Part shown: positions 1 to 20,496 of the stretch, piece by piece
How the letters are laid out: each line of letters begins with the position of its first letter
How positions within the stretch are numbered: position 1 is the first letter of the stretch
NCBI RefSeq assembly: GCF_020524285.1
Contig: NZ_JAIVKX010000012.1
Span: 1-64,000, forward strand
Reading direction: 5' to 3'
Length of the DNA: 64,000 nucleotides
From: Alloyangia pacifica
Lineage (GTDB): Bacteria; Pseudomonadota; Alphaproteobacteria; Rhodobacterales; Rhodobacteraceae
Notes under the pieces: model-generated
Told to the model about the DNA's origin: nothing
Database searches by the model: none
The model's input: only the letters and a program-made list of their open reading frames with translations
Position numbers and translations under genes: made by a program

Positions 1-134
1 GGCACCTCGCCGCGCTCGAGCATCTCGATCTTGCGCGGGTCCTTGTCGACGCAGACCACCTCGTGGCCGAAGTCGGAGAAACACACCCCGGAGACAAGAC
101 CGACGTAACCGGTGCCGATGATCGCAATCTTCAT
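1..134 (-). CDS. ugd: UDP-glucose 6-dehydrogenase, N-terminal part (cut by window edge)
   Basis: Only the first 44 codons are inside the window. They read MKIAIIGTGYVGLVSG and so on, the Rossmann NAD-binding start (GxGYVGL) typical of UDP-glucose/GDP-mannose dehydrogenases, followed by FGHEVVCVDKD with the acidic residue that binds the NAD ribose. The enzyme oxidises UDP-glucose to UDP-glucuronate in the cytoplasm for polysaccharide synthesis. The ATG at 134-132 is the natural start. The UDP-glucuronate 4-epimerase at 3351 would use its product. The catalytic Cys lies outside the window, so a sister enzyme such as UDP-ManNAc dehydrogenase cannot be excluded. Confidence 0.85.
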   Translation of the reverse strand, partial: MKIAIIGTGYVGLVSGVCFSDFGHEVVCVDKDPRKIEMLERGEV

Positions 135-288
135 CGCAAAAAATCCTTAGAATAATAAAACAATAATCACGGTTTACCGCTCCGGCAGCACAACTCAAAG
201 CAGATTCGCCCTGCTGCGTCCCATTGCGGCATCCTGAGGGGAGGAAGTGGTGCCAGAGAGGCAGGCACCAAGGTATTTCCTGTGGCCG

Positions 289-1260
289 TCACTGCCGTTT
301 CAGCCGAAAATAGACCGGCTTGACCACGGCCCATTCCAGATCGGCCAGACGGGGATGGCGCGCCTTGATCAGCCGGCGCCGGTGGAGCGCCCGCGTCGCC
401 AGATCCGGCGTCACGCCCGGCGGCAGGGGCATGCCGAAGAGTTCCTGCAGCATGAGCATCTGCAGATCGAAGGCAAAGCGGAAGCCACGGTTCCGGCGCA
501 GCCCCAGAAGCCAGGGCCAGTCAAGCTCGGCCCTGTGGTCGCGGACCTGCGTGCGAAGCGGCAGCAGATAGCGCAGGCTGATGCCGCCCCGCGCGAGCCC
601 GGTGTGATGCAGCATGTCGTGGCTGATGTTGATGAGCAGGCGCATCGAAGCGTCGGGCACGTAGAATTTCAGACCGTCGCGATGCTGCAAGTCCCGTCTC
701 AATTCCCAGTCGCCCACCGTCAGATAGCGCGCGATGTCCGACTGCAGGCCCGCATGAAGATCAAGCGTGCCGACGTATCCTTCCTTCCAGAAGCTGCCGG
801 GCGAATGCGCGTATTCACTGTCCTCGAGCCGCTCGAAGCCGGCCCGCGCCAGCACCCTCTGTGCCAGCGTGACCTCCTCCGGCTCCACCAGAAGATCGAC
901 GTCGATCATCATGCGGTAGAAGTCCGACGGATCGTCCTGAAGGGCCATTTCGCTGGCCCCCTTGATCAGGGTCGGCACGATATCCGCCGCGTTGAGCAGA
1001 GCCGTGCATTCCGCAACCATGGCCCAGAGATTGCTGTTCCGACGACAATTGAGGGAATCGAGCTCTCCGAGATAGGCCATGGCCTCGGGTTCTGCTGCCG
1101 GGATGTCGCCCTGGCGCAGCCTGTGGAACAGAGCCGGGGTGACGAACTCATCGTTCGCGGTCCCGATAAGCCCTGCCCAGTCCGGCCCATGACCAAGGTC
1201 GCCGCAGAGCGCGCGACCGAGACTTTCCAGCGGGGAAGACGCTGCGATGTCTGCTTTCAT
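289..1260 (-). CDS. Nucleotidyltransferase family protein (NTP_transf_5 type)
   Basis: 323 aa, soluble. Residues 98-125 carry the family pattern LIKGASE followed by RMMIDVDLLV, in which D120 and D122 would be the metal-binding acidic pair of the polymerase-beta-like nucleotidyltransferase fold. Start ATG 1260 is preceded by GGAACAGG. It is the last gene of a minus-strand cassette after the 73-aa peptide gene (2536-2757) and the HPr-kinase-like gene (1398-2489), with a 137-bp gap upstream. Known for the family: such enzymes sit beside HprK-like kinases in peptide-modification loci, including some lasso peptide clusters. Transfer of a nucleotide onto a phosphorylated peptide or partner is inference. 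The substrate is unknown. Confidence 0.7.
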   Translation of the reverse strand: MKADIAASSPLESLGRALCGDLGHGPDWAGLIGTANDEFVTPALFHRLRQGDIPAAEPEAMAYLGELDSLNCRRNSNLWAMVAECTALLNAADIVPTLIKGASEMALQDDPSDFYRMMIDVDLLVEPEEVTLAQRVLARAGFERLEDSEYAHSPGSFWKEGYVGTLDLHAGLQSDIARYLTVGDWELRRDLQHRDGLKFYVPDASMRLLINISHDMLHHTGLARGGISLRYLLPLRTQVRDHRAELDWPWLLGLRRNRGFRFAFDLQMLMLQELFGMPLPPGVTPDLATRALHRRRLIKARHPRLADLEWAVVKPVYFRLKRQ

Positions 1261-1397
1261 GTGCCTGTTCCAATGCCGAAAAAAATTGGCGAAACGCGAT
1301 CGAAAATATGAACGCGGGATACTATAAAGAATTTGAAAAAATCACTTATCTACAATCACTTTCTACTAGAATTCCAATTACCATACCTCCACAGCGT

Positions 1398-2489
1398 TCA
1401 CTCTTCGCAGAACCGCGACACCTCGGCGAGGGCCCGCGGCAAATCAGAATAGGTCAGGCAGCCAAAGCGCGCGCCATGAAGGCATCCCGCCATCGCCTCG
1501 AAGACCTCCGGCGACATCGCCTCTTCGCCCGACCAGGCAGCACCCAGCATCGCCTGGAATGCCTCGGACAGCGACAGGTCCGACACCGAGGCCGGGCCGC
1601 TGTCCTGCCGGTCAAGCTTGAGCAGCCGGCCGACGTCCTTCCAGCCAGCGTCACCGCTAAGCCCAAGGTAGCGCACGCTCTGCGCGTCCGGGCGCAGGTG
1701 CTGCCCAGCGCCCTCGATCTCGGCGCGGCGATGCTCGAGCAGCGACCACGAGCCCTGCTTGAGCGTCACCGGAAACGGCAACGCAGAGACTTCGCCGCTG
1801 GGCGACAACAGCACGATGTCGTCGCTCAGCAGCCCGAAGCCCGCGCTTTCGAGGGCGGTGGCGAGCGTGCTCTTGCCGGCGCCGGCATCGCCGAGCAGCA
1901 ACAGGCAGCGCCCGGCTCTCTCGAGCTGCGCGGCATGCAGCATGACATAATTCGTATGATCGAAGAGGACCTCGGTCATCTTGATCTTGAGAAGCGGCAC
2001 CGCCTCATGCGGCGCCACCCAGTCGATTTCCTCGTCGCGGCGGGCGATGCCGATCCGGTCGCCCTCGCGCTGCACCACGATGTGATCGTCGCCCCGGCAG
2101 GGCGACACGGCAAGCTGTGCGAAGCTGGGCATCAGTTCCGTCCGAAGAAGCTCATCCTCGAAGGCAACGACGACCCGCACCCCGGCGAGGTCGAAAACTT
2201 CCCAGCACGCAACGCGCGCGGGGCCACCCGCTGTTGCCAGCGGCTCGAGCGCACCGATCTGCATCAAATCCAGGAGAATGCCGCCACCTGCGACAGCGGC
2301 GGCATCCGAGGGCACGGACGCAACGCCAAGTTCGAACCCTGCCCATGCCTCGGCCACTGGGGGAGTGGCCGAAAACAGAAGCTCCTTCTCTGGGACCAAG
2401 AGAAGATGCTGGCGGTTCACTTGCGCCAGCGTGACCCCTGCTGCGGGGAGGACAAAAAGGTTATCACTCAACGAAATACGTCTTTTCAA
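1398..2489 (-). CDS. HPr-kinase-related P-loop kinase (HprK-related kinase A type)
   Basis: 363 aa from a TTG start at 2489. The kinase half contains H185 (VMLHAAQLE, the HprK-like catalytic His region), a Walker A loop at 200-208 (GDAGAGKST) and a DD pair at 223-224 (LSDDIVLL), matching the order His, P-loop, Mg-binding Asp of HPr kinase/phosphorylase. Residues 1-85 resemble a degenerate PqqD-like winged-helix peptide-binding domain (inference). No HPr or PTS gene is near, so the target is probably not HPr; the small peptide gene 46 bp upstream is the obvious candidate. No good ribosome site precedes the TTG, so translation may be coupled or the start may be a second TTG at 2474. Confidence 0.7.
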   Translation of the reverse strand: MKRRISLSDNLFVLPAAGVTLAQVNRQHLLLVPEKELLFSATPPVAEAWAGFELGVASVPSDAAAVAGGGILLDLMQIGALEPLATAGGPARVACWEVFDLAGVRVVVAFEDELLRTELMPSFAQLAVSPCRGDDHIVVQREGDRIGIARRDEEIDWVAPHEAVPLLKIKMTEVLFDHTNYVMLHAAQLERAGRCLLLLGDAGAGKSTLATALESAGFGLLSDDIVLLSPSGEVSALPFPVTLKQGSWSLLEHRRAEIEGAGQHLRPDAQSVRYLGLSGDAGWKDVGRLLKLDRQDSGPASVSDLSLSEAFQAMLGAAWSGEEAMSPEVFEAMAGCLHGARFGCLTYSDLPRALAEVSRFCEE

Positions 2490-2535
2490 AAGGAAGAAAC
2501 ATCAGGACGCCTGAAAATGCCGGCGTCCGGTTGGC

Positions 2536-2757
2536 TTAGTGATACTTGCCGTACTTCTTCTTCATTTTGAACTTGTGCTTATGCTTGTGCTTCATGCCGC
2601 CCGACCGGAAGATACCGCCGGCATCTGCCTTCATCGAGGTGGAAAGAAGCGCCGTCACCGCCAGCGGGGTCACCGCTGCGTATTTCCCGGCCTTGCCAAG
2701 CAGTTCGCGACGGCCAGGGGATTCCAGGGAGTCCCCCTGGGGGGTCTTATCTGTCAT
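2536..2757 (-). CDS. Small peptide with twin-arginine-like leader and Lys/His-repeat tail (putative modified peptide precursor)
   Basis: 73 aa. The ATG at 2757 is chosen because AAGGAG lies 8 nt upstream; an in-frame ATG at 2778 lacks such a site. Residues 14-22 (PGRRELLGK) are Tat-like, followed by a mildly hydrophobic stretch to about 41 (KYAAVTPLAVTALLSTS) and a possible cleavage point after A44-D45-A46. The remaining segment is GGIFRSGG and a 19-residue tail, 55-73, with nine Lys and four His, including an alternating KHKHKHK at 56-62 and ending YGKYH. First gene of the cassette with the HprK-like kinase and nucleotidyltransferase. I infer a leader/core precursor or exported basic peptide; candidate phospho-acceptors are S39, T40, S41 and S52. 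I do not recognise a named family. Confidence 0.65.
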   Translation of the reverse strand: MTDKTPQGDSLESPGRRELLGKAGKYAAVTPLAVTALLSTSMKADAGGIFRSGGMKHKHKHKFKMKKKYGKYH

Positions 2758-3350
2758 CTTGAAAACTCCTTTTTTCAATGATTCGAACTATAGCGCAGCG
2801 GCGGAGGTCTGCCAATTATCTTTAAGGCTGTATTAACCTAACGCCCGAATGCACTTTCCCACGCCACTCGAGAAGAGGCGTTTAAGATGCCGGTTTCTGT
2901 CAAGATTTTACCTTCAAAGACAAGATGTAAGCGGGAAGCCCGGATGAAGAACGCGCGCGCGCCGTCACCGTCTCACCGGCGATCCGTTCAGAAAATAGGC
3001 AAACAACCGTTTCCAAAATGGAAACACAATCCGCGGAAGTTTCTGCCTCTGGCGCGGCTCGTCTTGCGGCGCGTCATGAAGACCATGCCCAAGACCAAGC
3101 AATGCCTCGCTCGAATCACTCAAATGCGGCACAGTTGCGGTCCGACGCGGTGGACCGCTCGGTGCCGTGCCACCCGGGAGGGACGCTTACAAGGCACGCT
3201 CACAAGGCAAGTCGCCATCCGAATGAGCAGGGCTGGCGGAGCACCGAGCAAAGACCTTCGCAGGGAAGAAAGCGCTTGCTTTGACCGCAGGCTGCGCACA
3301 AGAAAGTAGACATTATTTTTTGATTTTTAATACTTGGTAGGAGTTCATTG
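2758..3350. other. 593-bp intergenic region between the peptide cassette and the epimerase gene
   Basis: No convincing gene: the open frames here lack ribosome sites and have compositionally odd translations. The 2780-2840 part is AT-richer and should hold the promoter of the minus-strand peptide cassette. The last 50 bases before 3351 are AT-rich and hold the promoter and AGGAG (3339-3343) of the epimerase gene. A 7-bp perfect inverted repeat with a 3-bp spacer, GTTTCCA-AAA-TGGAAAC, lies at 3010-3026. Confidence 0.5.
3010..3026. promoter_or_regulatory. 17-bp inverted repeat, possible operator
   Basis: GTTTCCA and TGGAAAC are perfect complements around AAA. It stands alone in the long divergent intergenic region, so a regulator binding site is possible. 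No match to a known operator was recognised. Confidence 0.25.
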
Positions 3351-4412
3351 ATGCGCACCGCATTGGTCACTGGCTCTTCGGGCTTTATCGGCTACCACCT
3401 CTGCCAGCGACTGCTAGACGACGGGTTTCGCGTCCTGGGCATCGACAATCTCTCGGAATACTACGATGTGGATCTCAAGCTGCGCAGGCAGGCGCTGCTG
3501 CAGAAGCATCCGGATTTCTCCGTTCTCAACGGCGCAATCGAGACCAAGGGACTGCTTGCCGAGGTCTTCGCCCGCGAAACGCCCGACGTGGTCGTGCATC
3601 TGGCGGCGCAGGCCGGCGTCCGCCACTCGCTGGTCAACCCGCGCAGTTATCTAGAAAGCAATATGGCCGGCACCTTCGAGCTGCTCGAAGCGGCCCGCGC
3701 GGCACCTCCCGGCCACATGCTTCTGGCCTCGACCTCCTCGGTCTACGGCGCCAACACCGAGATGCCCTACACGGAAACCGACCGCACCGATCACCAGATG
3801 TCCTTCTACGCGGCAACGAAGAAGGCCACCGAGTGCATGGCGCACAGCTACGCGCATCTCTACGATCTGCCGGTGACGATGTTCCGCTTCTTCACGGTCT
3901 ACGGACCCTGGGGCCGACCGGACATGGCGCTGTTCAAGTTCACCAAGGCAATCCTCAGCGGCGCGCCGATCGACGTCTACAACCACGGCCAGATGATGCG
4001 GGACTTCACATATGTCACCGATCTCGTGCAGGGCATCCGGCTGCTGATCGACGTGATACCGCAGCGGCCCGAGGATGGCATTGTGCCCGCGGGAGACTCG
4101 CTGTCGCCGGTCGCGCCGTGGCGGGTGATCAATATCGGCAACTCGCAGGCGGTGCCGCTCGGCGACTTCATCGCCGCCATCGAAACCGCCACGGGGCTCG
4201 AGGCGAAGCGCAACCCGATGTGCATGCAGCCGGGCGACGTGCCGGCCACCTGGGCCGATGCGACGCTGCTGCACGAGCTGACCGGCTATCGCCCCGGCAC
4301 CAGCCTTGCCGAGGGGGTGCAATCCTTTGTCGACTGGTACCGCGAGTACTACGCGACCAACGACTGGGCGGAAACCTCCGCCGCGCCGCAAGACCTGCGC
4401 CGCATCTCCTGA
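3351..4412 (+). CDS. UDP-glucuronate 4-epimerase (NAD-dependent epimerase, extended SDR)
   Basis: 353 aa; ATG 3351 has AGGAG 7 nt upstream and is preferred to the adjacent TTG. Begins with the GxxGFIG nucleotide-binding loop (TGSSGFIGYHL), has the LAAQAGVRHS motif, the catalytic STSSVYG with YAATKK (Tyr-x3-Lys), and FRFFTVYGPWGRPDMAL, which is characteristic of capsule-type UDP-glucuronate 4-epimerases rather than UDP-glucose epimerases. Converts UDP-glucuronate to UDP-galacturonate in the cytoplasm, using the product of the dehydrogenase at the left edge. Likely serves LPS or exopolysaccharide synthesis. A dTDP-glucose dehydratase is unlikely given the WGRPDMA motif. Confidence 0.88.
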   Translation: MRTALVTGSSGFIGYHLCQRLLDDGFRVLGIDNLSEYYDVDLKLRRQALLQKHPDFSVLNGAIETKGLLAEVFARETPDVVVHLAAQAGVRHSLVNPRSYLESNMAGTFELLEAARAAPPGHMLLASTSSVYGANTEMPYTETDRTDHQMSFYAATKKATECMAHSYAHLYDLPVTMFRFFTVYGPWGRPDMALFKFTKAILSGAPIDVYNHGQMMRDFTYVTDLVQGIRLLIDVIPQRPEDGIVPAGDSLSPVAPWRVINIGNSQAVPLGDFIAAIETATGLEAKRNPMCMQPGDVPATWADATLLHELTGYRPGTSLAEGVQSFVDWYREYYATNDWAETSAAPQDLRRIS

Positions 4413-4466
4413 CGTCTCGGCGGGACACCCTCGGGCGCCCCCCCTATACCCTAGCTCCTCAGGCCC

Positions 4467-4874
4467 TCAGCGCAGCACGTGCACCGCGCAGTGGGCGTGG
4501 CGGACGACCACGGCCGCGGTCGAGCCCAGAAGATAATCGCTCATCGCCGGCTGGTGCGAGGCGATGATGATCAGATCGCAGCCGTTCTCCTCGCCGTATT
4601 CGAGGATCGACCGGCCGGAATGCCCTTCGATCACCATGCCCTTTGCGCCCGGCACTTTCGCCGCCATGTCTGCCAGTTCCTTCTCCAGCGCGGCACGGGA
4701 CTGCGTGAGGTACTCTGCGGGCAGATAGGAGATCGCGTAGCCGGGGATATGCTCCATGACATGCAGAAGCGTGATCTTGGCATCCGGCTCCGCAAGCGCC
4801 TGCGCGACCTCGATCGACTTGTGTGCCTTGGAATCACTGTCAAAGGCGATGGGCACGAGAATGTTCTTGTACAT
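4467..4874 (-). CDS. Universal stress protein (UspA family)
   Basis: 135 aa, the usual length of a single Usp domain. Starts MYKNILVPIAFD, with the conserved Asp after the first strand, and ends with LLGSTAAVVVRHAHCAVHVLR, the family C-terminal GS and strand. The canonical G-x2-G part of the ATP loop is weak (SHQPAMSDYLLGS), so ATP binding is uncertain. AAAGGAGG lies just upstream of ATG 4874. Convergent with the epimerase gene and alone in its transcription unit. Role: a cytoplasmic stress-related protein, substrate unknown. Confidence 0.85.
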   Translation of the reverse strand: MYKNILVPIAFDSDSKAHKSIEVAQALAEPDAKITLLHVMEHIPGYAISYLPAEYLTQSRAALEKELADMAAKVPGAKGMVIEGHSGRSILEYGEENGCDLIIIASHQPAMSDYLLGSTAAVVVRHAHCAVHVLR

Positions 4875-5154
4875 GCGAGGCCTCCTTTCCTGACCTGAGG
4901 TGACTATGCCCCCTGCAAAGGGATAGCACCTTGATACAAATCATCCTCCCAAGCCGCGGGCGGCAACACAATTCGGGCACAATTGCGCGCTACCTCTGGT
5001 TTCGGGCCGCAGAACGCGCCGCCCTTCCCTCCGGGCCCCAGGGCTCCACGGGAGGACCCGGTTTCGCCGGCAGACCTGAAAGAACGGTCCCCTTCCCCAA
5101 GAGACTGGATTTGTCGCCGGCCCGATGCCCGCGGCCCCTAGGAGGAGCACGCCC

Positions 5155-5850
5155 ATGCGTTACCTGATCGCCGAAACGACCTGGAAGATGATTGGCCTCG
5201 GCCATGCGCTGTCGCAGACCGGCACGCTGCTGACCCGATGCGAAGCCGCCGAGGACATCGAGGAATTCCACCGCATCGGCGCGCATGACCTCCTGGTGAT
5301 CGAGGCCGCCGTGCTGCGCAGCCAGACCACGCTGACCCGCCTGCGCGAGCTGAACCCCGAGGTGCCGATCGCGCTCATCTCGCGCCCGGTGGATGGTGCA
5401 CAGATCGCCGCCTGGCTGATGGCCGGGGCCGACACCGTGCTGCCTTCCGAAGCCTCCCCCGAGGAGATCCTCGCCCGGCTCGGCGCCGTCGCCCGCCGTG
5501 CGCATGGGGTCTCCGGGCCGATCAGCGACTGCGGCCCGCTGCGCCTCGATCTGGAAAAGCGCCGCGTGCATTTCGGCGCCACCACGCTCTCGCTTTCTCC
5601 CAAGCTTTACGAGATCCTAGAGTTTCTCGCCCTGCGCCCCAGTCGGCTTGCCACGCGCGAGACCCTTATGAACCACATCTACGGCTTCGAGAACGAGCCC
5701 GCGCCGCGGGTCTTCGACGTCTACATGTGCAACCTTCGCGCCCACCTCGCCCCGGTCGAGGCGGCGCTCAGCATCGAGACGGTGCGCGGCGAGGGCTACC
5801 GTCTGCGGGTCACCGAGCGCCGCGGCGCCGCGCGCACCATGGCGGCCTGA
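5155..5850 (+). CDS. OmpR/CtrA-type response regulator with degenerate receiver domain
   Basis: 231 aa; ATG 5155 preceded by AGGAGGAGC. N-terminal about 115 residues look like a receiver domain and residues about 125-225 like an OmpR-type winged helix (SLSPKLYEILEFLALRPS, then RETLMNHIYG and VFDVYMCNLRAHL), closest in feel to the CtrA C-terminus. The expected phospho-acceptor Asp is Glu at position 50 (HDLLVIEAAVL), and the conserved Lys near the end of the receiver is not visible. So it probably acts without phosphorylation or mimics the phosphorylated state. No histidine kinase is adjacent. It could be a CtrA- or FtcR-like regulator; targets unknown. Confidence 0.8.
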   Translation: MRYLIAETTWKMIGLGHALSQTGTLLTRCEAAEDIEEFHRIGAHDLLVIEAAVLRSQTTLTRLRELNPEVPIALISRPVDGAQIAAWLMAGADTVLPSEASPEEILARLGAVARRAHGVSGPISDCGPLRLDLEKRRVHFGATTLSLSPKLYEILEFLALRPSRLATRETLMNHIYGFENEPAPRVFDVYMCNLRAHLAPVEAALSIETVRGEGYRLRVTERRGAARTMAA

Positions 5851-5894
5851 GCCAGCCCCGATGCGCCCCGCTCGATGTGCCCTGGGAGGCGGTG

Positions 5895-6212
5895 TCAGTA
5901 GACCGCCGCCACCTCGTAGAGCACTGGCTCGAAACTCCTGCACAGCTCGTTGAAACGGCGGTTCCAAGAGCGCATCTCGGAACTGCGCAGCATGGCCAGG
6001 AAGTCCTCGCGGTGTTTCCACTGAGAGTAATTGGCGATCCGGGTCTGCGCGTCGTTCACGTGCAGGCCCGCCCCGACGAACCCCGGCTGCTTCGAGATGA
6101 AAGCGTCATACGCCTCTTCCAGCGCCTCGAGCAGGTCCTGGCAGGTGCCCGGGCTGGTCTCGAAAGTCGTGACGACCGTCTGGGCGGAGCTTGGATGGGT
6201 GATGGTGGGCAT
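5895..6212 (-). CDS. Antibiotic biosynthesis monooxygenase (ABM) domain protein
   Basis: 105 aa from ATG 6212, which follows GGAGGAGGATCC; a longer frame upstream has no ribosome site. A single ABM/dimeric alpha-beta barrel domain: VVTTFETSPGTCQDLLEALE, then PGFVGAGLHVNDAQTRIANYSQW and a helix HREDFLAMLRS. These small proteins act as cofactor-free oxygenases or as heme- or metabolite-binding dimers. No pathway neighbours define a substrate. Convergent with the response regulator gene. Confidence 0.75.
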   Translation of the reverse strand: MPTITHPSSAQTVVTTFETSPGTCQDLLEALEEAYDAFISKQPGFVGAGLHVNDAQTRIANYSQWKHREDFLAMLRSSEMRSWNRRFNELCRSFEPVLYEVAAVY

Positions 6213-6415
6213 GGGATCCTCCTCCTGTGCCCCGTGCAGTCTGCCAGAAATTCCCGCACGTCCAAAGCCTTCCCTTTGTTTCGCGGCCGTGCCGTCACAG
6301 CCTGCGGAAACACGCCGGTCGCCCGAGAAAAGGGGGCGCAATCGCGCAACGGACCTGATAAGCTCCCGGCAAAACACGGATCACCCGGAACAGGCACGGA
6401 CAGACCGGAACAGGC

Positions 6416-7120
6416 ATGAGCAGTCCCCGTATCGACGAGACGCTGCGCGAGCAGTTGCTCTCTCGCCCCGACATGATTCTCGATGACCGCGACCTGATGC
6501 AGGCGCTCATCGCGTCCAACGAACGCGCCATGGGCTCCAATATCGTGGACCTGCGCGGCATCGCGATGGAGCGGCTGGAGTCGCGCCTCGACCGGCTCGA
6601 GGACACCCACCGCAGCGTTATCGCCGCCGCCTACGAGAACCTCGCCGGCACCAACCAGATCCACCGTGCCATCCTGCGCATGCTTGATCCGGTGGCCTTC
6701 GAGCCCTTCCTGCGCGATCTCAACGGCGAGGTCGCGGCGATCTTGCGGGTCGATGTCATGCGGCTGGTGCTGGAAACCGGCCACCCCGACGACACCCGCG
6801 CCGTCAGCAAGCTCGGCGACGTGCTGTCGCTGGCCGAGCCGGGCTTTGTCTCCAGCTACCTCACCGAGCGCACCGACGCGCCGCTGCGGCAGGTCACCCT
6901 GCGCCAGCTCGGCGCCGGCGACACGCGCATCTTCGGCCCGCGCGCCGACCTAATCCGCTCCGAAGCCTGCCTCAAGCTCGACTTCGGCCCGCGCCGCCTG
7001 CCCGGCCTGCTGGTCATGGGCTCCGAGGATCCGCAGATGTTCACGCCGCAGCAGGGCACCGATCTGCTCGCCTTCTTCGGCGGCGTTTTCGAGCGCACCA
7101 TGCGGCGCTGGCTCTCGTGA
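6416..7120 (+). CDS. DUF484 family protein
   Basis: 234 aa. Pattern typical of DUF484: an N-terminal helical segment (IDETLREQLLSRPDMILDDRDLMQAL), a coiled region around residues 45-75, then a GAF-like domain ending with a bulk helix LLAFFGGVFERTMRRWL. Function is unknown in the family. It overlaps the start of xerC by 4 bp, a gene order seen widely in proteobacteria, so the two are translationally coupled and may be linked to chromosome dimer resolution or cell division. Confidence 0.85.
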   Translation: MSSPRIDETLREQLLSRPDMILDDRDLMQALIASNERAMGSNIVDLRGIAMERLESRLDRLEDTHRSVIAAAYENLAGTNQIHRAILRMLDPVAFEPFLRDLNGEVAAILRVDVMRLVLETGHPDDTRAVSKLGDVLSLAEPGFVSSYLTERTDAPLRQVTLRQLGAGDTRIFGPRADLIRSEACLKLDFGPRRLPGLLVMGSEDPQMFTPQQGTDLLAFFGGVFERTMRRWLS

Positions 7121-8043
7121 GCCTCGCGCTCACACCCGCCGCGCGCGACGCGCTGCAAAGCTGGCTGGAGCACGCCCGCGCGCTGAAGAACGCCTCCGAA
7201 AACACCATCACCGCCTATCGTGCCGACGTGGCCGAGTTCATTGCCTTCCAGACGATGCACCACGCCGAGCCGCAGGGGCTGAAGCCACTGGCCCGGATCA
7301 CCACCCCGGACATGCGCGCCTTCATGGCGCATCTGCACGCGGGCGGGGCTGCACCACGCTCCATGGCCCGCAAGCTCTCGGCGGTGAAGAGCTTCTACCG
7401 CTGGCTGGCCGAGCGCGAGGGCTTCGAGCCCACCGCCGTGCTCTCGGCCCGCGCCCCGAAATTCCAGAAGAAGCTGCCGCGCCCGCTCACCGAGGACGCC
7501 GCGCGCGCGATGATCGACACCGTCGAGATGCAATCGCGCGACGGCTGGGTCGGCGCGCGTGATGCGGCCGTCGTCACCCTGCTCTACGGCTGCGGGCTGC
7601 GCATCTCGGAAGCGCTGGGGCTGACCGGCGCCGACTGGCCCTTCGGCGAGTCGTTGCGGATCATCGGCAAGGGGGGCAAGGAGCGCATCGTTCCGGTCAT
7701 CCCCGTGACCCGCCGCGCGGTCGAGACCTACCTGCAGCTCTGCCCCTTCGAGATCACCCCCGAAAGCCCGCTGTTCCGCGGCGCGCGCGGCGGCAAGCTC
7801 AACGCCCGGCTGATCCAGTCGGTCACCGAGAAGGCCCGCATGCAGCTCGGCCTGCCCGCCAGTGCCACGCCCCACGCCATGCGTCACAGCTTCGCCACGC
7901 ACCTGCTGTCGGCCGGGGGTGATCTGCGCGCCATCCAGGAGCTGCTGGGGCACGCCTCGCTCTCGACCACCCAGGCCTATACCTCGGTGGACAGCGTGCA
8001 CCTGATGAAGGTCTACGAGGCGACCCACCCCAAAGCACGCTGA
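7117..8043 (+). CDS. xerC: Tyrosine recombinase XerC
   Basis: 308 aa from GTG 7117, overlapping the DUF484 stop. The N-terminal SAM-like core-binding domain (residues 8-105) is followed by a catalytic domain with R162 (GCGLRISEAL), K185 (GKGGKER), H253 and R256 (HAMRHSFATHLL), H279 (LLGHASLSTTQAY) and nucleophile Y288. Full length for XerC/XerD. It resolves chromosome dimers at dif with XerD. Pairing with DUF484 favours XerC over XerD or an integron/phage integrase. Confidence 0.92.
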   Translation: MSLALTPAARDALQSWLEHARALKNASENTITAYRADVAEFIAFQTMHHAEPQGLKPLARITTPDMRAFMAHLHAGGAAPRSMARKLSAVKSFYRWLAEREGFEPTAVLSARAPKFQKKLPRPLTEDAARAMIDTVEMQSRDGWVGARDAAVVTLLYGCGLRISEALGLTGADWPFGESLRIIGKGGKERIVPVIPVTRRAVETYLQLCPFEITPESPLFRGARGGKLNARLIQSVTEKARMQLGLPASATPHAMRHSFATHLLSAGGDLRAIQELLGHASLSTTQAYTSVDSVHLMKVYEATHPKAR

Positions 8044-10792: not shown

Positions 10793-11578
10793 TCAGGGCT
10801 GCGAGAGCCCGTCGACCATGACCATCACGCGCCCTTCCGAGCAGCGCTCGACCCGCGCATCGATGCCGTAGACCTGCGACAGGCTCTGCGGCGTCAGCAC
10901 CTCGCCCGGCGCGCCCGCGGCGCGCAGCGCGCCGCCCTCCAGCAGCACCACCCGGTCGGCCCATTGCGCCGCCAGCGCCAGATCGTGCAGCACGGCGATG
11001 ACGATGCGCCCCTCGCGGGCCAGCTTGCGCGCCTCCGACAGCAGGTGGAATTGCCGCGCCAGATCGAGCGCCGAGGTCGGCTCGTCGAGCAGCAGGAGCT
11101 TGGGGTCGCGGATCATCGCCTGCGCCAGACCCACCGCCTGCCGCTGCCCGCCCGAGAGCGCCGCCATCGGGCGCAGCGCCAGATCGGCGAGCCCGAAGCG
11201 CTCCAGCACCTCCAGCGCGTGACGCCCCGCTGCGGGGCCACGCAGCGCCCGCCCGGCCAGACCGCCACCGGCGTTCATCGCCACCATCAGGCTGTCGAGC
11301 ACGGTCAGCGCCGAGCGGCTCTCGAGGCTCTGGGGCATGAAACCCACCAGCTTCGCCTGCTCGGCGCGCGGCAGGGCATGCAGCGCCTGTCCTTCAAGCG
11401 CGATCTCGCCCGTCGACGGCAGCAGGCCGGCAATGGCCCGCAGCAGCGTCGACTTGCCCGCCGCATTGGGCCCGGCGATCACCGCGAATTCACCGACGGC
11501 GAAGGGCGGCAGGCTCAGCCCGTCGATGACCTTGCGCGGCCCGCGCGCAACGGTCAGATCCCGAATATCAAGGCTCAT
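10793..11578 (-). CDS. Iron-siderophore ABC transporter ATP-binding protein
   Basis: 261 aa from ATG 11578. Walker A GPNAAGKSTLLRAIAG near residue 36, Q-loop FMPQSLES, signature ALSGGQRQAVGLAQA, Walker B LLLLDEPTSALD and H-loop LHDLALAAQWAD, as in FecE/FepC/BtuD-like ATPases. Start overlaps the permease stop by 4 bp (ATGA), showing tight coupling. Cytoplasmic partner of the permease at 11575 and the periplasmic binding protein at 12615. Confidence 0.9.
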   Translation of the reverse strand: MSLDIRDLTVARGPRKVIDGLSLPPFAVGEFAVIAGPNAAGKSTLLRAIAGLLPSTGEIALEGQALHALPRAEQAKLVGFMPQSLESRSALTVLDSLMVAMNAGGGLAGRALRGPAAGRHALEVLERFGLADLALRPMAALSGGQRQAVGLAQAMIRDPKLLLLDEPTSALDLARQFHLLSEARKLAREGRIVIAVLHDLALAAQWADRVVLLEGGALRAAGAPGEVLTPQSLSQVYGIDARVERCSEGRVMVMVDGLSQP

Positions 11579-12618
11579 CGTGCCTCCCTCCGCAGCACCA
11601 GCGCAAAGAACACCGGCAGCCCGACCAGCGAGGTCACGATCCCCACCGGCAGCAGGATGCCGGGCACCAGAAGCTTCGAGGCGACCGAGGCCAGGGACAT
11701 CAGCAGCGCCCCGGTGAAGAGGCTCGCGGGCAGCAGGAAACGGTGATCCTCGCCCACCGCCATGCGCGCGATATGCGGCCCGGCGAGGCCGACGAAGCCG
11801 ATGACGCCGACCATCGAGACCGAGGCCGCTGCCAGCAGACTTACCCGCACCAGCGTCCAGCGCCGCAGGTGAGCAACGTCGAGCCCGAAGCCCTGCGCCT
11901 GATCGCTGCCGAGCCGCAGCGCCGTCAGCCGCCATGACGCGGCGAGCGAAAACGGCAGGCAGAGCGCCAGCACCAGCGCCAGCACCGCGATACCCTCCCA
12001 GCGAGCATTGACGAGGCTGCCCATGGTCCAGAACACCAGCTGCTGCAGCGCGTCGGGCGAGGCGACGAATTGCACCAGCGCCAGCAGCGCCGCGGCGGTG
12101 AAGTTGACCGCGATGCCGAGCAGGATGACTACCTCGGAGCCGCCGCCGCGCAGGGCCGAGGCGAGCTGAAGCAGCCCAAGCGCCAGCAGCGCGAAGACGA
12201 AGGCGTTGGCCGAGACCGACCACAGCGCGGGGATGCCCGGGATCGCAAGTCCGAGCACGATCGCCACCCCCGCCCCGAGCGCCGCCGAGGCCGAGATGCC
12301 CAGCGTGAAGGGCTCGGCCAGCGGGTTGTCGAGCACCGTCTGCATCTCGGCGCCCGAAAGCGACAGCGCCGCACCCACCAGCAACGCCATGACCGCCACC
12401 GGCAGGCGCACCTGCCAGACGATCACCTCGGCGGCCTTCGGCACATCCCCTGCCCCGGTCAGCGCGCCCAGCACCTGTTCGAGCGGCAGGCCCGACGGCC
12501 CCGACACCAGGTCCAGCAGAACAGAGGCCAGCGCCCCGACCCCCAGCAGCACCACGAGCAGCACCCGGCGCTGCGTGCGCCGCGACTGTTCGGCAAGAAT
12601 GGAATCGACCGCGCTCAT
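11575..12618 (-). CDS. Iron-siderophore ABC transporter permease (FecCD family)
   Basis: 347 aa, about ten membrane segments. Family motifs visible: RLPVAVMALLVGAALSLSGAEMQTVLDNPLAEPFTLGIS in pieces near residues 70-110 and GVIGFVGLAGPHIAR near 270, which is the coupling region of BtuC/FecD permeases. A single permease, so it must act as a homodimer. Overlaps the binding-protein gene and the ATPase gene by 4 bp on both sides. Confidence 0.9.
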   Translation of the reverse strand: MSAVDSILAEQSRRTQRRVLLVVLLGVGALASVLLDLVSGPSGLPLEQVLGALTGAGDVPKAAEVIVWQVRLPVAVMALLVGAALSLSGAEMQTVLDNPLAEPFTLGISASAALGAGVAIVLGLAIPGIPALWSVSANAFVFALLALGLLQLASALRGGGSEVVILLGIAVNFTAAALLALVQFVASPDALQQLVFWTMGSLVNARWEGIAVLALVLALCLPFSLAASWRLTALRLGSDQAQGFGLDVAHLRRWTLVRVSLLAAASVSMVGVIGFVGLAGPHIARMAVGEDHRFLLPASLFTGALLMSLASVASKLLVPGILLPVGIVTSLVGLPVFFALVLRREAR

Positions 12619-13748
12619 TCGGCGGAAATCCAGTAGCTGCCGGTCATCTCGACCGGCGAGAAGCGCTCCTCGAACTCGGCCATGGTGGCCATCGGGTCGA
12701 GGTCAGGGAAGAGGTCGGGATGGATGCGCTTGGCCAGCGCCTCGATCAGCGCGATATGCGCTGGAAAATCGTTGAACAGGTGCCAGATGCCGATCGCCCG
12801 CCCCTCCTGCACCGCGCGCAGGTCGGCAAAGCCGGGCGTCTCGAGCAGATCGGCAAAACTCTGCTCCGCCGTCTCGGTGTCGATGCCCGCCCCCAGCACC
12901 AGCCCGCCGCGCGCCTTCATATGCGCGCCGCCCGTGGCCAGATAGACATCCGGGTCCGAGGCCAGCAGGTTCTCCAGCCCGACATTGCCCATCACCCCCG
13001 GCACGCTGTCGCGCCCGATGTTGTAGCCGCCCGCCGCCTCGACGAACTCGTCGAAGACGCCCGGGCCGACGGTGGCGCAGCAATTGGTCGGCGCGGCGTG
13101 CACGTGGATGAAGACCCGCGGCGGCGCGGGCTGCGCCGCCTTCAAGCTGTTCCGCACCGCATCCAGATGATCATTGTAGAATTCGGCGAACTCTCCGGCC
13201 TTGTCCTCGGCGCCGGTGAGCTCTCCGATCAACTTCAGGCTCGGCAGGGTGTTCTCAAGTGGCGCTGTGAAGAAATCGACAAAGGCCACAGGGATGCCCG
13301 CCGCCTCGAGCTGGCGCAGCGGCATCTCCATCTGCGGGTCGCGCGCGTCCATCAGGCTCAGCAGCACAAGGTCCGGCATCAGCGCAATGGTGCTCTCGAC
13401 CGACAGCAGCCGGTTTCCCGCCCCCACGGGCGTGACGTCGGCCAGCGCCGGGAACTTGGCGAGATAGGCGTCATAGGTCGCCGGGTCGAGCCCCTTGTCC
13501 TGCCGCCAACCCGCCAGCAGCGCGACCGGATCGGCCTGCAGCATGCCGAGGACCGCCAGATGCCGGCCCTCGCCCAGGACGATCCGCTTTGCGGGCTGCT
13601 CCAGAACCACCTCGCGCCCGGCAAGATCGGTCACGCGGATCTCGGCCCGCGCGGACACCGTGCCAAGCGACATCACGAGAGCGACGAGGAGACTCACCAG
13701 CAGCCATTTCAAGAGGAGTGAATGCGGATGCCTGAGACGCAGCGTCAT
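12615..13748 (-). CDS. Periplasmic iron-siderophore binding protein
   Basis: 377 aa from ATG 13748, which has GAAAGGAC just upstream; a longer frame to 13793 is rejected. Signal peptide with a hydrophobic core (LLLKWLLVSLLVALVMSLG) and probable cut near SARAE. Mature part starts IRVTDLAGREVVLEQPAKRIVL, the standard opening of TroA/FepB-like type III binding proteins. First gene of the uptake operon, divergent from the esterase gene, with an iron-box-like palindrome between them. The exact ligand is not readable; the neighbouring siderophore is the natural candidate. Confidence 0.88.
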   Translation of the reverse strand: MTLRLRHPHSLLLKWLLVSLLVALVMSLGTVSARAEIRVTDLAGREVVLEQPAKRIVLGEGRHLAVLGMLQADPVALLAGWRQDKGLDPATYDAYLAKFPALADVTPVGAGNRLLSVESTIALMPDLVLLSLMDARDPQMEMPLRQLEAAGIPVAFVDFFTAPLENTLPSLKLIGELTGAEDKAGEFAEFYNDHLDAVRNSLKAAQPAPPRVFIHVHAAPTNCCATVGPGVFDEFVEAAGGYNIGRDSVPGVMGNVGLENLLASDPDVYLATGGAHMKARGGLVLGAGIDTETAEQSFADLLETPGFADLRAVQEGRAIGIWHLFNDFPAHIALIEALAKRIHPDLFPDLDPMATMAEFEERFSPVEMTGSYWISAE

Positions 13749-13803
13749 GGGAGTCCTTTCTTCGGCACGATCGGCCATTGCAGCCGGCGCCAAGGGAAAT
13801 TAC

Positions 13804-13820
13804 TTGAGTGGTATTGTCAA
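13804..13820. promoter_or_regulatory. Iron-rhodo-box-like palindrome
   Basis: TTGA, nine bases, TCAA (13804-13820) fits the TGA-N9-TCA iron-rhodo-box described for Rhodobacterales iron genes. It lies in the 96-bp gap between the divergent uptake operon and esterase gene and its left-facing strand contains TTGACA, so a repressor bound here would cover a promoter. Regulation by RirA-like or other iron regulators is inference. Confidence 0.55.
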
Positions 13821-13844
13821 CTAATAAGCCCGAGAGCGAACGTC

Positions 13845-14723
13845 ATGTGCGCAAGCGCCCCCAAGGCCCCTCTGCCGCCGCACCAAGGGCGGGAGGCGAC
13901 GCTGGAAATCCTTTCGGCCCCCGTTGCTTCGCATGTGCTGAGCAGCCGGGTGCTGCCGCGCGGGACCTGCGGGCCCACGGATCCCGAGGTGCCCGCAACG
14001 CGGCTCTTCCTCGCTGTGCCCAAGGCGCCCGCGCCCGAAGCCGGTTGGCCGATCCTCTACCTGCTCGATGGCAACGCGGCCTTCGATTTCCTGACCCCCG
14101 CGCTGCTCGAGGCCGCGCCGCGGCTGATCGTCGCCGGGATCGGCTATGACACCGACAAGCAGTTCGCCCGCGCGCATCGCATCTTCGACTACTCGCCGCC
14201 CGAGACCCCCGGCGCCGCGCCGCGCCCGGACCCGCATCACCCCGAGCGCCTTGCAGGCGGCGCCGAGGCCTATCTCGCGCGGCTGACCGGCGGCATCCGC
14301 GCCGAGGTGGAGCACGACCTGCCAGTCGATCCCGAGCGGCGCACGCTCTGGGGCCACAGCTTCGGCGGGCTCTTCACGCTCTTCACCGCGCTGACCCGGC
14401 CCGGGAGCTTCGCCCGCTTTGCGTCGATCAGCCCCTCGGTCTGGTGGGACGAGGCGCTGGTCACGCGGCTGGTCACGCAGCGCAGCATCGCGGAGGGCGC
14501 GCCGCGGCCACTGCACTTCGGCATGGGCGACAAGGAGAAGCGCACCGGCAGCGCCGGGCCGCAGCCCGAGGGGCCTCCGCCGCCCACCCTGCAGATGATC
14601 GAGCGGCTGCAGGCCGCGCCCGCCGGGCTGGAGATCGCGGCGCAGGTCTATCCCGGCGCGGTGCATATCGCCTCGCTGCCGGCCTCGCTGCCCGGCGCGC
14701 TGGCGCTGGCCTCCCGATCCTAG
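13845..14723 (+). CDS. Alpha/beta-hydrolase, siderophore esterase type (IroE/Fes-like)
   Basis: 292 aa from ATG 13845. Esterase D/IroE pattern: GWPILYLLDGNAAFDFL, a nucleophile elbow GHSFGG (WGHSFGGLFTLF) and a C-terminal HIASLPASLPGAL with the probable catalytic His. Such enzymes cut trilactone catecholate siderophores such as enterobactin to free iron. No signal peptide is evident, so it is probably cytoplasmic. The gene converges on the 3' end of the NRPS gene (28-bp gap), placing it in the siderophore locus. Confidence 0.78.
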   Translation: MCASAPKAPLPPHQGREATLEILSAPVASHVLSSRVLPRGTCGPTDPEVPATRLFLAVPKAPAPEAGWPILYLLDGNAAFDFLTPALLEAAPRLIVAGIGYDTDKQFARAHRIFDYSPPETPGAAPRPDPHHPERLAGGAEAYLARLTGGIRAEVEHDLPVDPERRTLWGHSFGGLFTLFTALTRPGSFARFASISPSVWWDEALVTRLVTQRSIAEGAPRPLHFGMGDKEKRTGSAGPQPEGPPPPTLQMIERLQAAPAGLEIAAQVYPGAVHIASLPASLPGALALASRS

Positions 14724-14751
14724 GAGACGCCGCGGGCGACCGCGCCGCAAC

Positions 14752-18627
<3,876 letters not shown>

Positions 18628-18628
18628 G

Positions 18629-18865
18629 TCAGGCCCCGGCGTGCTGGGCCGCGACGACGCCCCACCAGCCGGCAAAGGTCTGGTGCTCCCAGATCTCGGA
18701 AAGATCCGCATCCTCGGCCTCGTCCTGCCAGGTCATGACCAGCGACATCAGCCGCATCGAGTCGAGCCCCAGGTCGAAGAGGTTGGCCTCGGCGGTGATC
18801 TCCTCGGGGGCGATCTCCAGCGCCTCGGCGATATCGGCGCGCATTTTCTCTTGCGTGAGGCTCAT
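18629..18865 (-). CDS. Stand-alone aryl carrier protein
   Basis: 78 aa, one carrier domain. The phosphopantetheine site is LGLDSMRLM with S36. Overlaps the aryl-AMP ligase stop by 4 bp and is followed by the NRPS after one base, so all three are co-translated. In Escherichia coli the equivalent domain is fused to isochorismatase in EntB; here it is free. It would receive 2,3-dihydroxybenzoate or a similar aryl acid from the ligase and present it to the condensation domain. Confidence 0.87.
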   Translation of the reverse strand: MSLTQEKMRADIAEALEIAPEEITAEANLFDLGLDSMRLMSLVMTWQDEAEDADLSEIWEHQTFAGWWGVVAAQHAGA

Positions 18866-20496
18866 GCGGCGTCTCCTTTTTCCAGGTATTTCTCTTTCAG
18901 CGCGGCGCGCAGCGCCTTGCGGCTGACCTTGCCCACGGCGGTGGTCTCGAATTCGGGCACGAAGACGATCTGGTCGGGCACCTTGAACTCGGCGATGCCG
19001 CGACCGCGGACGAAGGCCTTGAGATCCTTCGACTGGACCTCGCCTTCTTCCGAGCGCACCACGAAGGCACAGGTCTTCTCGCCCAGGAAGCGGTCGGGCA
19101 AAGCCACCACCGCGGCGTCGAAGACGCCTGCGTGGGCGATCAGGTGATCCTCGACCTCCTCGGCCGAGATCTTCTCGCCGGCGCGGTTGATGTGGTCCCC
19201 GGCCCGGCCCCGCACCTCGAGATAGCCGCCGGGCAGGCGGCGCACCACATCGCCGGTGCGGTAGAACCCGTCGGGCGTGAAGCTGCGGGCGTTGGCCGAG
19301 GGCTCCTCGTGGTAGCCGCGGATGGTGTAGGGCCCGCGGGTGTAGAGATTGCCGGGCTCGCCCTCGGGCACCGGATTGCCGTCGTCGTCGAGCACCAGCA
19401 CCTCGTCGTCGGGGCTGATCGGGCGGCCCTGGGTATTGATGATGATCTCTTCGGGATCGTCGAGACGGGTGTAGTTCACCAGCCCCTCGGCCATGCCGAA
19501 GACCTGCTGCAGAGTGCAGCCGAGCACGGGGCGGACCTTTGCCGCCGCCTCGGGAATGAACTTCGCCCCGCCGACGCCAAGCACCTGCAGGCTCGACAGG
19601 TCGTGCTTGCTGCGCGGCGCGGCCTGCATCCAGAGCAGCGCCAAGGGCGGCACCAGGCCGGTGATCGTCACGCCGTGCTCGGCGATCAGGCGGAAGGCGA
19701 CCTCGGGCTGCGGGTTGGGGCTCATCACCACGGTGCCGCCCGCGTGCAGCGCGCCGAGATAGCCGGGCGAGCTCATCGGGAAGTTATGCGCCGCGGGCAG
19801 CGCGCAAAGGTACACGCTCGCGTCGCTCAGGCCGCAGATCTCGGCAGAGGCGCGAACGCTGTAGAGATAGTCGTCATGGGTGCGCGGGATCAGCTTCGGC
19901 AAGCCCGTCGAGCCGCCGGAGATCTGCAGGAAGGCAACTTCGCGCGGGTTGCGCGGAACCGGGGCGGAAAGCCCTGCGTCCCCAAGGCTGTCGAAGGCGA
20001 TGAACTCCGCCGCCTCGCCAGCGACGATCACCTGCGCGATGGCCTCGACCTCGGCCAGAACCCTACGCGCCAGCGGCAGGTAGTCGAAGCCGTCATGCCG
20101 GTCCGCGACCACGTAGGCGCGCGCGCCGGACTTGGCGGCCAGATGCAGCACCTCGGTTTCGCGATGCGCCGGCAACGCGTAGACCGGCACCAGCCCAGCG
20201 TAGAAGAGACCGAAAGCGGCGGCGAGGAATTCCGCCCGGTTCGGCAGCTGCACCAGTACCCGGTCGCCCGGCTCCAACCCGAGATCGGCGAACCCCTCGG
20301 CGGCGATGCGGGCGCGGCGGGCAAGCTCGGCATACGTCCAGCGGGTGTCCCCGGCGACAAGGGCGAGGCGCTCGGCGTGAGCCGCCGCCAGCCGGTCGAG
20401 CATCTGACCAAAGGTCTCGCCCTGCCAGTAGCCCTTTTCCACATAGCGCCGCGCGAAATCTTCGGGCCAAATCTGCTGGGGGATACTCATGGTCAT
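18862..20496 (-). CDS. Aryl-acid AMP ligase, 2,3-dihydroxybenzoate type (EntE/DhbE-like)
   Basis: 544 aa from ATG 20496 (AGAGG upstream; ATG 20490 also possible). Strongly DhbE-like: LQISGGSTGLPKLIPRTH, ALPAAHNFPMSSPG with the Asn that replaces the amino-acid-binding Asp, VFGMAEGLVNYTRLDDP, and FYRTGD. Pocket Ser (SSPG) and Val (GLVNYT) resemble 2,3-dihydroxybenzoate enzymes, while Phe after HN is more like salicylate enzymes. Loads the carrier protein next door. Genes that would make 2,3-dihydroxybenzoate (entCBA) are not in this window. Confidence 0.88.
   Translation of the reverse strand: MTMSIPQQIWPEDFARRYVEKGYWQGETFGQMLDRLAAAHAERLALVAGDTRWTYAELARRARIAAEGFADLGLEPGDRVLVQLPNRAEFLAAAFGLFYAGLVPVYALPAHRETEVLHLAAKSGARAYVVADRHDGFDYLPLARRVLAEVEAIAQVIVAGEAAEFIAFDSLGDAGLSAPVPRNPREVAFLQISGGSTGLPKLIPRTHDDYLYSVRASAEICGLSDASVYLCALPAAHNFPMSSPGYLGALHAGGTVVMSPNPQPEVAFRLIAEHGVTITGLVPPLALLWMQAAPRSKHDLSSLQVLGVGGAKFIPEAAAKVRPVLGCTLQQVFGMAEGLVNYTRLDDPEEIIINTQGRPISPDDEVLVLDDDGNPVPEGEPGNLYTRGPYTIRGYHEEPSANARSFTPDGFYRTGDVVRRLPGGYLEVRGRAGDHINRAGEKISAEEVEDHLIAHAGVFDAAVVALPDRFLGEKTCAFVVRSEEGEVQSKDLKAFVRGRGIAEFKVPDQIVFVPEFETTAVGKVSRKALRAALKEKYLEKGDAA

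Follow-up and report, generated by a model that had tools for sequence, protein, structure and literature searches.

In the alphaproteobacterium Alloyangia pacifica, three consecutive minus-strand genes at 289–2757 of the first 64 kb of contig C12 (NZ_JAIVKX010000012.1; this whole stretch is the window) encode a small peptide with a twin-arginine translocation (Tat)-like leader, an HprK-type kinase and an enzyme of the NTP_transf_5 family. A preliminary description, made from the window alone, had proposed that they form a minimal system for phosphorylating or nucleotidylating a basic peptide. The positions of the three genes were confirmed, and comparison with other genomes (handles G for genomes, L for loci and C for contigs) established that the system is real, conserved and wider than a reading of one sequence could show. 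The features of the module, including a domain resembling the recognition elements (RRE) of ribosomally synthesized and post-translationally modified peptides (RiPPs), are as follows.

2536..2757, minus strand: precursor peptide, 73 aa plus stop, with a conserved Tat-like leader (about residues 1–46) and a variable Lys/His tail
2707..2712, minus strand: twin-arginine codons R16-R17, invariant in 18/18 aligned leaders
2602..2604, minus strand: codon of Ser52, the best candidate phospho-acceptor, invariant in 18/18 aligned leaders
1398..2489, minus strand: HprK-type kinase with an N-terminal RRE-like domain; TTG start, probable true start TTG 2471
2217..2462, minus strand: RRE/PqqD-like domain, kinase residues 10–91, divergent within the genus
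1419..1958, minus strand: HprK-like kinase domain, about residues 178–357, with H185, K206, D223 and D224
289..1260, minus strand: NTP_transf_5 (PF14907) nucleotidyltransferase-fold enzyme, with K100, R116, D120, D122 and D167 invariant in 8/8

Across seven genomes of the genus, the leader DNA (codons 1–54) varied mostly synonymously, with a pS of 0.447 and a pN of 0.024 (synonymous and nonsynonymous variation, respectively); 38 of the 54 codon columns varied synonymously only, and pN was zero over codons 46–54. Because pN lies far below pS, the 73-residue peptide is a real gene whose leader is under strong purifying selection. Pfam and NCBIfam scans assigned no family to the peptide. Its tail differs between genus members (KHKHKHKFKMKKKYGKYH, KHKKKYKMKKKYGHYKH and NCKPGRKYKMKKKYGVN), and the window tail contains neither a serine or threonine beyond S52 nor a C-terminal serine. 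Elsewhere in the family the net charge of the tails ranged from +17 to −18, so the earlier characterization of the peptide as basic holds for the window clade alone.

Besides the start, R16, R17, L20, G24 and S52 were invariant in the 18 aligned leaders, which bears out the RR-containing leader noted in the preliminary description; T30 was kept in 17 of the 18 and position 26 was aromatic in all. The twin arginines are followed by a core consisting of an aromatic residue and then [TV]PPxVxxLLS. An A-x-A site was present in 19 of the 21 peptides examined. Relative to this site, the conserved serine stood at +2 in nine peptides, at +6 in the seven window-clade peptides and in Parasedimentitalea, and at +1 in one of the two G089 peptides, the other having none. 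Judged by motif rather than by a predictor, the leader has the features of a Tat signal (twin arginines, a moderate hydrophobic stretch and an AxA cleavage site), and TatC is encoded in the same genome. Apart from the arginines, a hydrophobic stretch and a site for cleavage, a Tat signal requires little; the remaining conservation of the leader should therefore serve the RRE and the kinase. Matches in long frames, which reached only 3.0e-4 with the window peptide as query and 6.9e-5 with the leader profile, are presumably ordinary Tat proteins. We also observed that G089 (L006:37-723) carries two tandem precursors before one kinase, the tail of one being strongly basic and that of the other strongly acidic (GRRGRRGRRGRRR in one and DDDEYDDDEEDDEEDDE in the other), and that a tail motif near NNGxGNGxxDGxPGxSG is common to peptides of several genomes (L112, L113, L115, L116, L117 and L118).

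The kinase scored 66.8 bits against TIGR04352 (HprK_rel_A), well below the cut-off of 200, and 23.5 bits against Hpr_kinase_C, below the cut-off of 33.3; a kinase profile matched HPr kinases of solved structure (3tqf and 1ko7). The HprK-type His and DD residues that had been recognized from the window (H185, D223 and D224) were invariant, together with K206, in 10/10 aligned kinases, with D224 dropping out in a set of 15. Translation probably begins at TTG 2471, because an in-frame TGA lies upstream of that codon in G408 and G410.

No PqqD relative had been recognized in the window by the preliminary description, and one is probably present there, fused to the kinase as an RRE-like N terminus. 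In the family kinases this domain is clear. A Methylobacterium relative carries a PqqD/RRE-like N-terminal domain at 36.9 bits (cut-off 23.4), and eight of a further 15 kinases gave a PqqD (PF05402) match at E 0.1, the best at 2.4e-10. A profile of 14 kinase N termini matched the lasso RRE structures 5v1u (TbiB1, 5e-7) and 6jx3 (TfuB1, 8e-6), and had a 97% hhalign probability against the Methylobacterium domain aligned with two PqqD proteins. The window copy is more divergent: its N terminus was matched at 1e-12 by a profile of its three nearest relatives, and a profile built from every kinase outside the genus placed it above all 10,000 shuffles (E 0.0035). Because these intermediate profiles link the divergent N terminus to clear RREs, we infer the same domain in the window kinase.

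The third enzyme scored 75.0 bits against PF14907 (cut-off 31.2), confirming its assignment to NTP_transf_5; a profile search with it matched no solved structure. PsmN, a nucleotidyltransferase-type enzyme, puts one or two hexoses onto the phosphoserine of pseudomycoidin, and a route via nucleotidylation and a host enzyme remained possible (PMC9266682, PMC8498205). By the PsmN precedent, the transferase of the window would be at least as likely to add a hexose as a nucleotide.

In the genus, a kinase match at E 1e-5 was found in 8 of 20 genomes, of which seven were full-length (E below 1e-177) and one was weak (G395); L009, L010 and L011 were taken as G399, G400 and G403 and counted once. All seven genomes with a full-length kinase have the peptide upstream and the transferase downstream. 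The genus peptide search covered these seven and G088, in which no peptide was found at E 0.01. The kinase is rare in the family, occurring in 5 of 394 genomes at E 1e-10, its own included. Peptide, kinase and transferase also occur together in G101, on the Parasedimentitalea plasmid pQS-1, and in Leisingera, Ensifer, Sinorhizobium meliloti and Novosphingobium, and further in G755, G790, G497, G595 and G1001. G938 has a kinase–transferase pair with a leader match downstream, and its congeners G832 and G836 lack leader and kinase alike. The Parasedimentitalea peptide, the sole match in a search of plasmids, had an E value of 0.9 and was accepted because it adjoins the kinase. The peptide gene lies downstream of the transferase in Ensifer and S. 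meliloti and is upstream, divergent or convergent elsewhere; G768 and G790 have extra copies far from the kinase, as would be seen if a single enzyme acted on several precursors. Across several alphaproteobacterial orders, homologues of the peptide stand next to homologues of the kinase, more than by chance. Co-occurrence of peptide and kinase in relatives had been set beforehand as the test of the proposal, and because the three genes make up a conserved module, the absence of association that would have spoken against it is not what we found.

To count the association, we used one draw of 385 alphaproteobacterial genomes, scoring five kinase candidates per genome and at most 17 leader candidates. 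At cut-offs that were picked after the lists had been seen (leader E 1e-6, kinase E 1e-30), and with related genomes that are not independent, a strong leader was present in 10 genomes and a strong kinase in 10, with both in 7 (Fisher p 6e-11). Removing the window's genome left 9 and 9 with 6 shared of 384 (p 1.6e-9). Leader and kinase were within about 3 kb of each other in five of the seven shared genomes, and a weaker leader match stood beside the kinase in three more (G642, G777 and, at a contig end, G721). At looser cut-offs, the leader profile matched in 37/385 (E 0.01) and the kinase profile in 28/385 (E 1e-15). Among 61 genomes of G768's family, the leader (E 1e-5) was found only in G768 and G1001 and the kinase (E 1e-20) in four; the only kinase matches below 1e-90 were in the same two genomes that have the leader. 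A phylum-wide draw of 200 genomes gave six leader matches at E 0.001, of which the three strong ones were all alphaproteobacterial and the remainder sat in frames of more than 430 residues.

The 7-of-10 count includes G489 and G702, whose tandem peptides we rejected as family members because they have no linked kinase and different tails. Without these two genomes the counts were 8 leaders, 10 kinases and 6 shared (p 1.3e-9), and 7, 9 and 5 (p 3.8e-8) once the window's genome was removed too. The G489 peptides (L119:6427-7338 and L120:5432-5632) are small and have a related RR leader and Cys-rich tails (CEPCSTCTPCD); those of G702 (L122:6028-6456) are likewise small, with a related RR leader and proline-rich tails. 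They are possibly another modified-peptide family.

A tree of 37 kinase domains, with labels set by hand and eight sequences dropped by the selection pattern, placed 11 of the 17 peptide-linked fused kinases, the window's included, in a group of 12 (support 87/87). The others fell into a group of six (four kinases; 93/90) and a group of three (two kinases; 91/86). Another 11 kinases, of the HPr-rel-A kind, formed a group of their own (99/97), in which nine have a separate PqqD-like match nearby and two have none that we found; no leader peptide belonging to the present family turned up around these 11 kinases, mostly within 1.5 kb on each side. On a Sphingomonas parapaucimobilis plasmid (L047:6921-7454), a different small RR-leader protein directly precedes a separate HPr-rel-A PqqD, kinase and transferase, and is a possible substrate of that adjoining set.

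Around the module, the window contains the following features.

2766..2770, minus strand: Shine–Dalgarno-like AGGAG, 8 nt ahead of the peptide ATG (2757), read from the sequence
2787..2815, minus strand: promoter-like TTGGCA-17-TATAGT upstream of the peptide, 10/12, a consensus match only
3..134, minus strand: start of a UDP-glucose dehydrogenase gene at the contig end, a flank outside the module
3351..4412, plus strand: NAD-dependent sugar-nucleotide epimerase family protein, a divergent flank

The promoter-like site is one of two seen in 3.4 kb, where 0.8 would be expected. A short terminator-like hairpin at 2502-2514 (minus strand) separates the peptide and kinase genes, and the peptide could for this reason be made in excess; there are 10 such sites in 3.4 kb against 3.4 expected. 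Because the window begins at the contig start, the far side of the UDP-glucose dehydrogenase gene is out of view. In the relative L011, glycosyltransferase and sulfotransferase genes lie beyond that gene, and in G408 and G410 (L024:468-3221 and L025:820-3528) a large open reading frame (ORF) lies on its far side, the L024 copy having a right-handed beta-helix region. The scanned neighbourhood comprised the 10 genes at 1-8043 (Pfam); beyond the epimerase gene it holds a universal stress protein, a Trans_reg_C regulator, an ABM monooxygenase, a DUF484 protein and an integrase-family protein, and no lasso or sortase genes were found among the 10. Farther along, ORFs at about 11575-19902 (minus strand) resemble, by eye, an iron-transport and non-ribosomal peptide synthetase (siderophore) cluster. 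In the window clade the module has UDP-glucose dehydrogenase close by, and in Parasedimentitalea and Leisingera it has polysaccharide genes; its flanks look ordinary in Ensifer, S. meliloti and several other genomes, the last judged by eye.

The closest known counterparts are the linear polyphosphorylated peptides (LPPs; LppA/K/B/S/D/N), described as restricted to Bacillota (Popov et al. 2026; PMC13381572). LPP clusters likewise combine an HprK-like kinase and an NTP transferase (here PF14907) without a lasso cyclase, and their precursors are linear with a conserved N terminus and a variable C terminus. An RRE (in the window kinase a probable one), a patchy distribution, a serine near the cleavage site and a frequent capsule-locus neighbourhood are also shared (PMC13381572). 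By contrast, the LPP RRE is a discrete protein whereas here the RRE-like domain is fused to the kinase, and the LPP leader motif YxxPx differs from the spacing here, where aromatic residue and proline form [YF]xxx[TV]P in 16 of the 18 leaders. LPPs also have a SipW-like peptidase, LppS, and an MsbA-like exporter; neither was found in the 10 scanned window genes or in the flanks of Parasedimentitalea and Leisingera as partly annotated. The hosts differ as well, being Bacillota for LPPs and, here, Alphaproteobacteria with a Tat-type leader.

In pseudomycoidin and paeninodin biosynthesis (PsmK/PsmN and PadeK), an HprK-like kinase with His-Lys-Asp-Asp acts on a peptide, as does a nucleotidyltransferase-type partner in the case of pseudomycoidin, which PsmK and PsmN phosphorylate and hexosylate (PMC9266682, PMC8498205). 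These systems differ in acting on the C-terminal serine of a lasso peptide and in having B and C proteins, whereas the window peptide has no C-terminal serine; consistent with the preliminary description, a lasso cyclase (Asn-synthetase-like) and a B2 peptidase were absent from the 10 window genes, as they were from five flanking genes of L011 and L010. The HPr-rel-A system (TIGR04352/TIGR04353) provides the best-scoring NCBIfam kinase model and shares a transferase partner and a PqqD-like domain, but there PqqD is a separate gene. Bufferins and other MNIO-modified RiPPs resemble the present peptides in that the precursor leader doubles as an export signal peptide, although their signal is of the Sec type and they involve cysteine-containing motifs, iron enzymes and unrelated chemistry (PMC12452194). 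We found no HprK–RRE fusion or Tat-type RiPP leader in the literature, in a search covering few subscription journals and no supplements, and the word 'kinase' is absent from the main texts of the RRE papers PMC12710340 and PMC7470986. A lasso peptide cluster on a Paracoccus sp. MC1862 plasmid (L048:4869-10524), inside an exopolysaccharide region, is annotated with PqqD, B2, an asparagine synthase-related protein, a serine kinase and an ABC transporter.

Taken with these likenesses, the module is probably a minimal RiPP-type system for peptide phosphorylation, the alphaproteobacterial counterpart in logic of the LPPs. The gene association, leader constraint, RRE homology (for the window copy, via intermediates), HprK homology, catalytic residues and genomic TatC are read from sequence; from there we infer the chemistry of every step, which serine is the target, the order in which things happen, export, and any role close to acidic exopolysaccharide. 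The precursor would dock by its conserved leader on the RRE-like N terminus of the kinase, whose HprK-type domain would use ATP to place one phosphate or several on a serine close to where the leader is cleaved. LppK adds as many as four phosphates to its precursor, at core S3 next to the leader, and the S3A mutation abolishes this (PMC13381572). By this precedent, S52 is the natural candidate here and would most likely be the target; among the sites suggested earlier (S39, T40, S41 and S52) it is the best conserved, although not universal. The PF14907 enzyme might then add a hexose or a nucleotide to the phosphate as a cap, after which Tat would export the modified precursor and signal peptidase I would cut at A-x-A. 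The peptide released would be short, modified at its head and variable in its tail, which is polycationic in the window clade. We put forward more tentatively, as a possibility, that these are a new RiPP family in which the leader is both an RRE–HprK docking site and a Tat signal, housekeeping export and signal peptidase replace a dedicated protease and transporter, and the product is a secreted phosphoglycosylated polyelectrolyte, possibly bound to a charged surface polysaccharide.

Several observations weigh against the phosphorylation system proposed here. S52 is missing from one of the two G089 peptides, which are outside the 18 aligned. Peptides do not adjoin the kinase in G768 and G489; in the 61-genome family, G1013 and G867 have a kinase match and no leader match; and G524, G532 and G702 have a leader peptide yet no kinase better than 2.4e-10. 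The window kinase itself gave no PqqD match, a distant RRE–kinase profile made without the near Rhodobacterales did not rank the window genus over shuffles, and a five-sequence Rhodobacterales N-terminal profile reached an hhalign probability of just 28%. AlphaFold models, built with four close sequences each, were of low confidence (mean pLDDT 39.6 for the kinase and 40.4 for the transferase). Finally, removing lppN, which encodes the nearest partner enzyme to have been studied, made no visible difference in a heterologous host (PMC13381572).

One alternative keeps the module and changes the target: the kinase would act on leader S39/T40 or another residue, and the phosphate would gate export or cleavage rather than remain on the product. 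Both residues are invariant in 9/9 peptides of one alignment and are kept in both G089 peptides, including the one without S52, and LPP precursors that lack phosphate are cleaved inefficiently (PMC13381572). We nevertheless consider this unlikely, given that neither S39 nor T40 is kept in the peptides of G497 and G595, which have kinases nearby, that S39 lies inside the hydrophobic stretch of the export signal, and that S52 is the last serine or threonine in the window peptide. It is also conceivable, if improbable, that the peptide is no more than a small, cation-rich protein of the usual Tat-exported sort, that kinase and transferase act on a different substrate, for instance a polysaccharide precursor, and that the locus is shared by chance or regulation. 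Such a view would fit the peptides without a good kinase and a module whose neighbours in the window clade, Parasedimentitalea and Leisingera are genes for UDP-glucose dehydrogenase, glycosyltransferase or other polysaccharide functions. It fits poorly with a peptide–kinase association that persists across orders amid unrelated flanks, with leader conservation exceeding the needs of a Tat signal, with the weakness of the long-frame matches, and with the fusion of a leader-binding type of domain to the family kinases. That the kinase is a paralogue of the carbon-regulation HPr kinase/phosphorylase, as its HprK-type P-loop, His and Asp residues might suggest, seems to us highly improbable. It lies far under the cut-off of the hpr-ser model (23.4 against 240 bits), and a separate weak HprK-like match lies on contig C7. 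An ORF in the same 15-kb stretch (L026) as the C7 match resembles, by eye, HPr, so the carbon-regulation role seems filled elsewhere. A toxin–antitoxin pair was also considered and was dropped given the leader peptide and the RRE.

If the proposed peptide phosphorylation system is correct, it would unite an HprK kinase carrying a fused RRE with a RiPP leader that also serves as a Tat signal, and it is so small that two enzymes and one peptide should suffice to reconstitute it. The system makes the role of the nucleotidyltransferase-type partners testable. It would also mean that phosphate-based tailoring of linear peptides extends from Bacillota to alphaproteobacteria, including the root-nodule genera Sinorhizobium and Ensifer.

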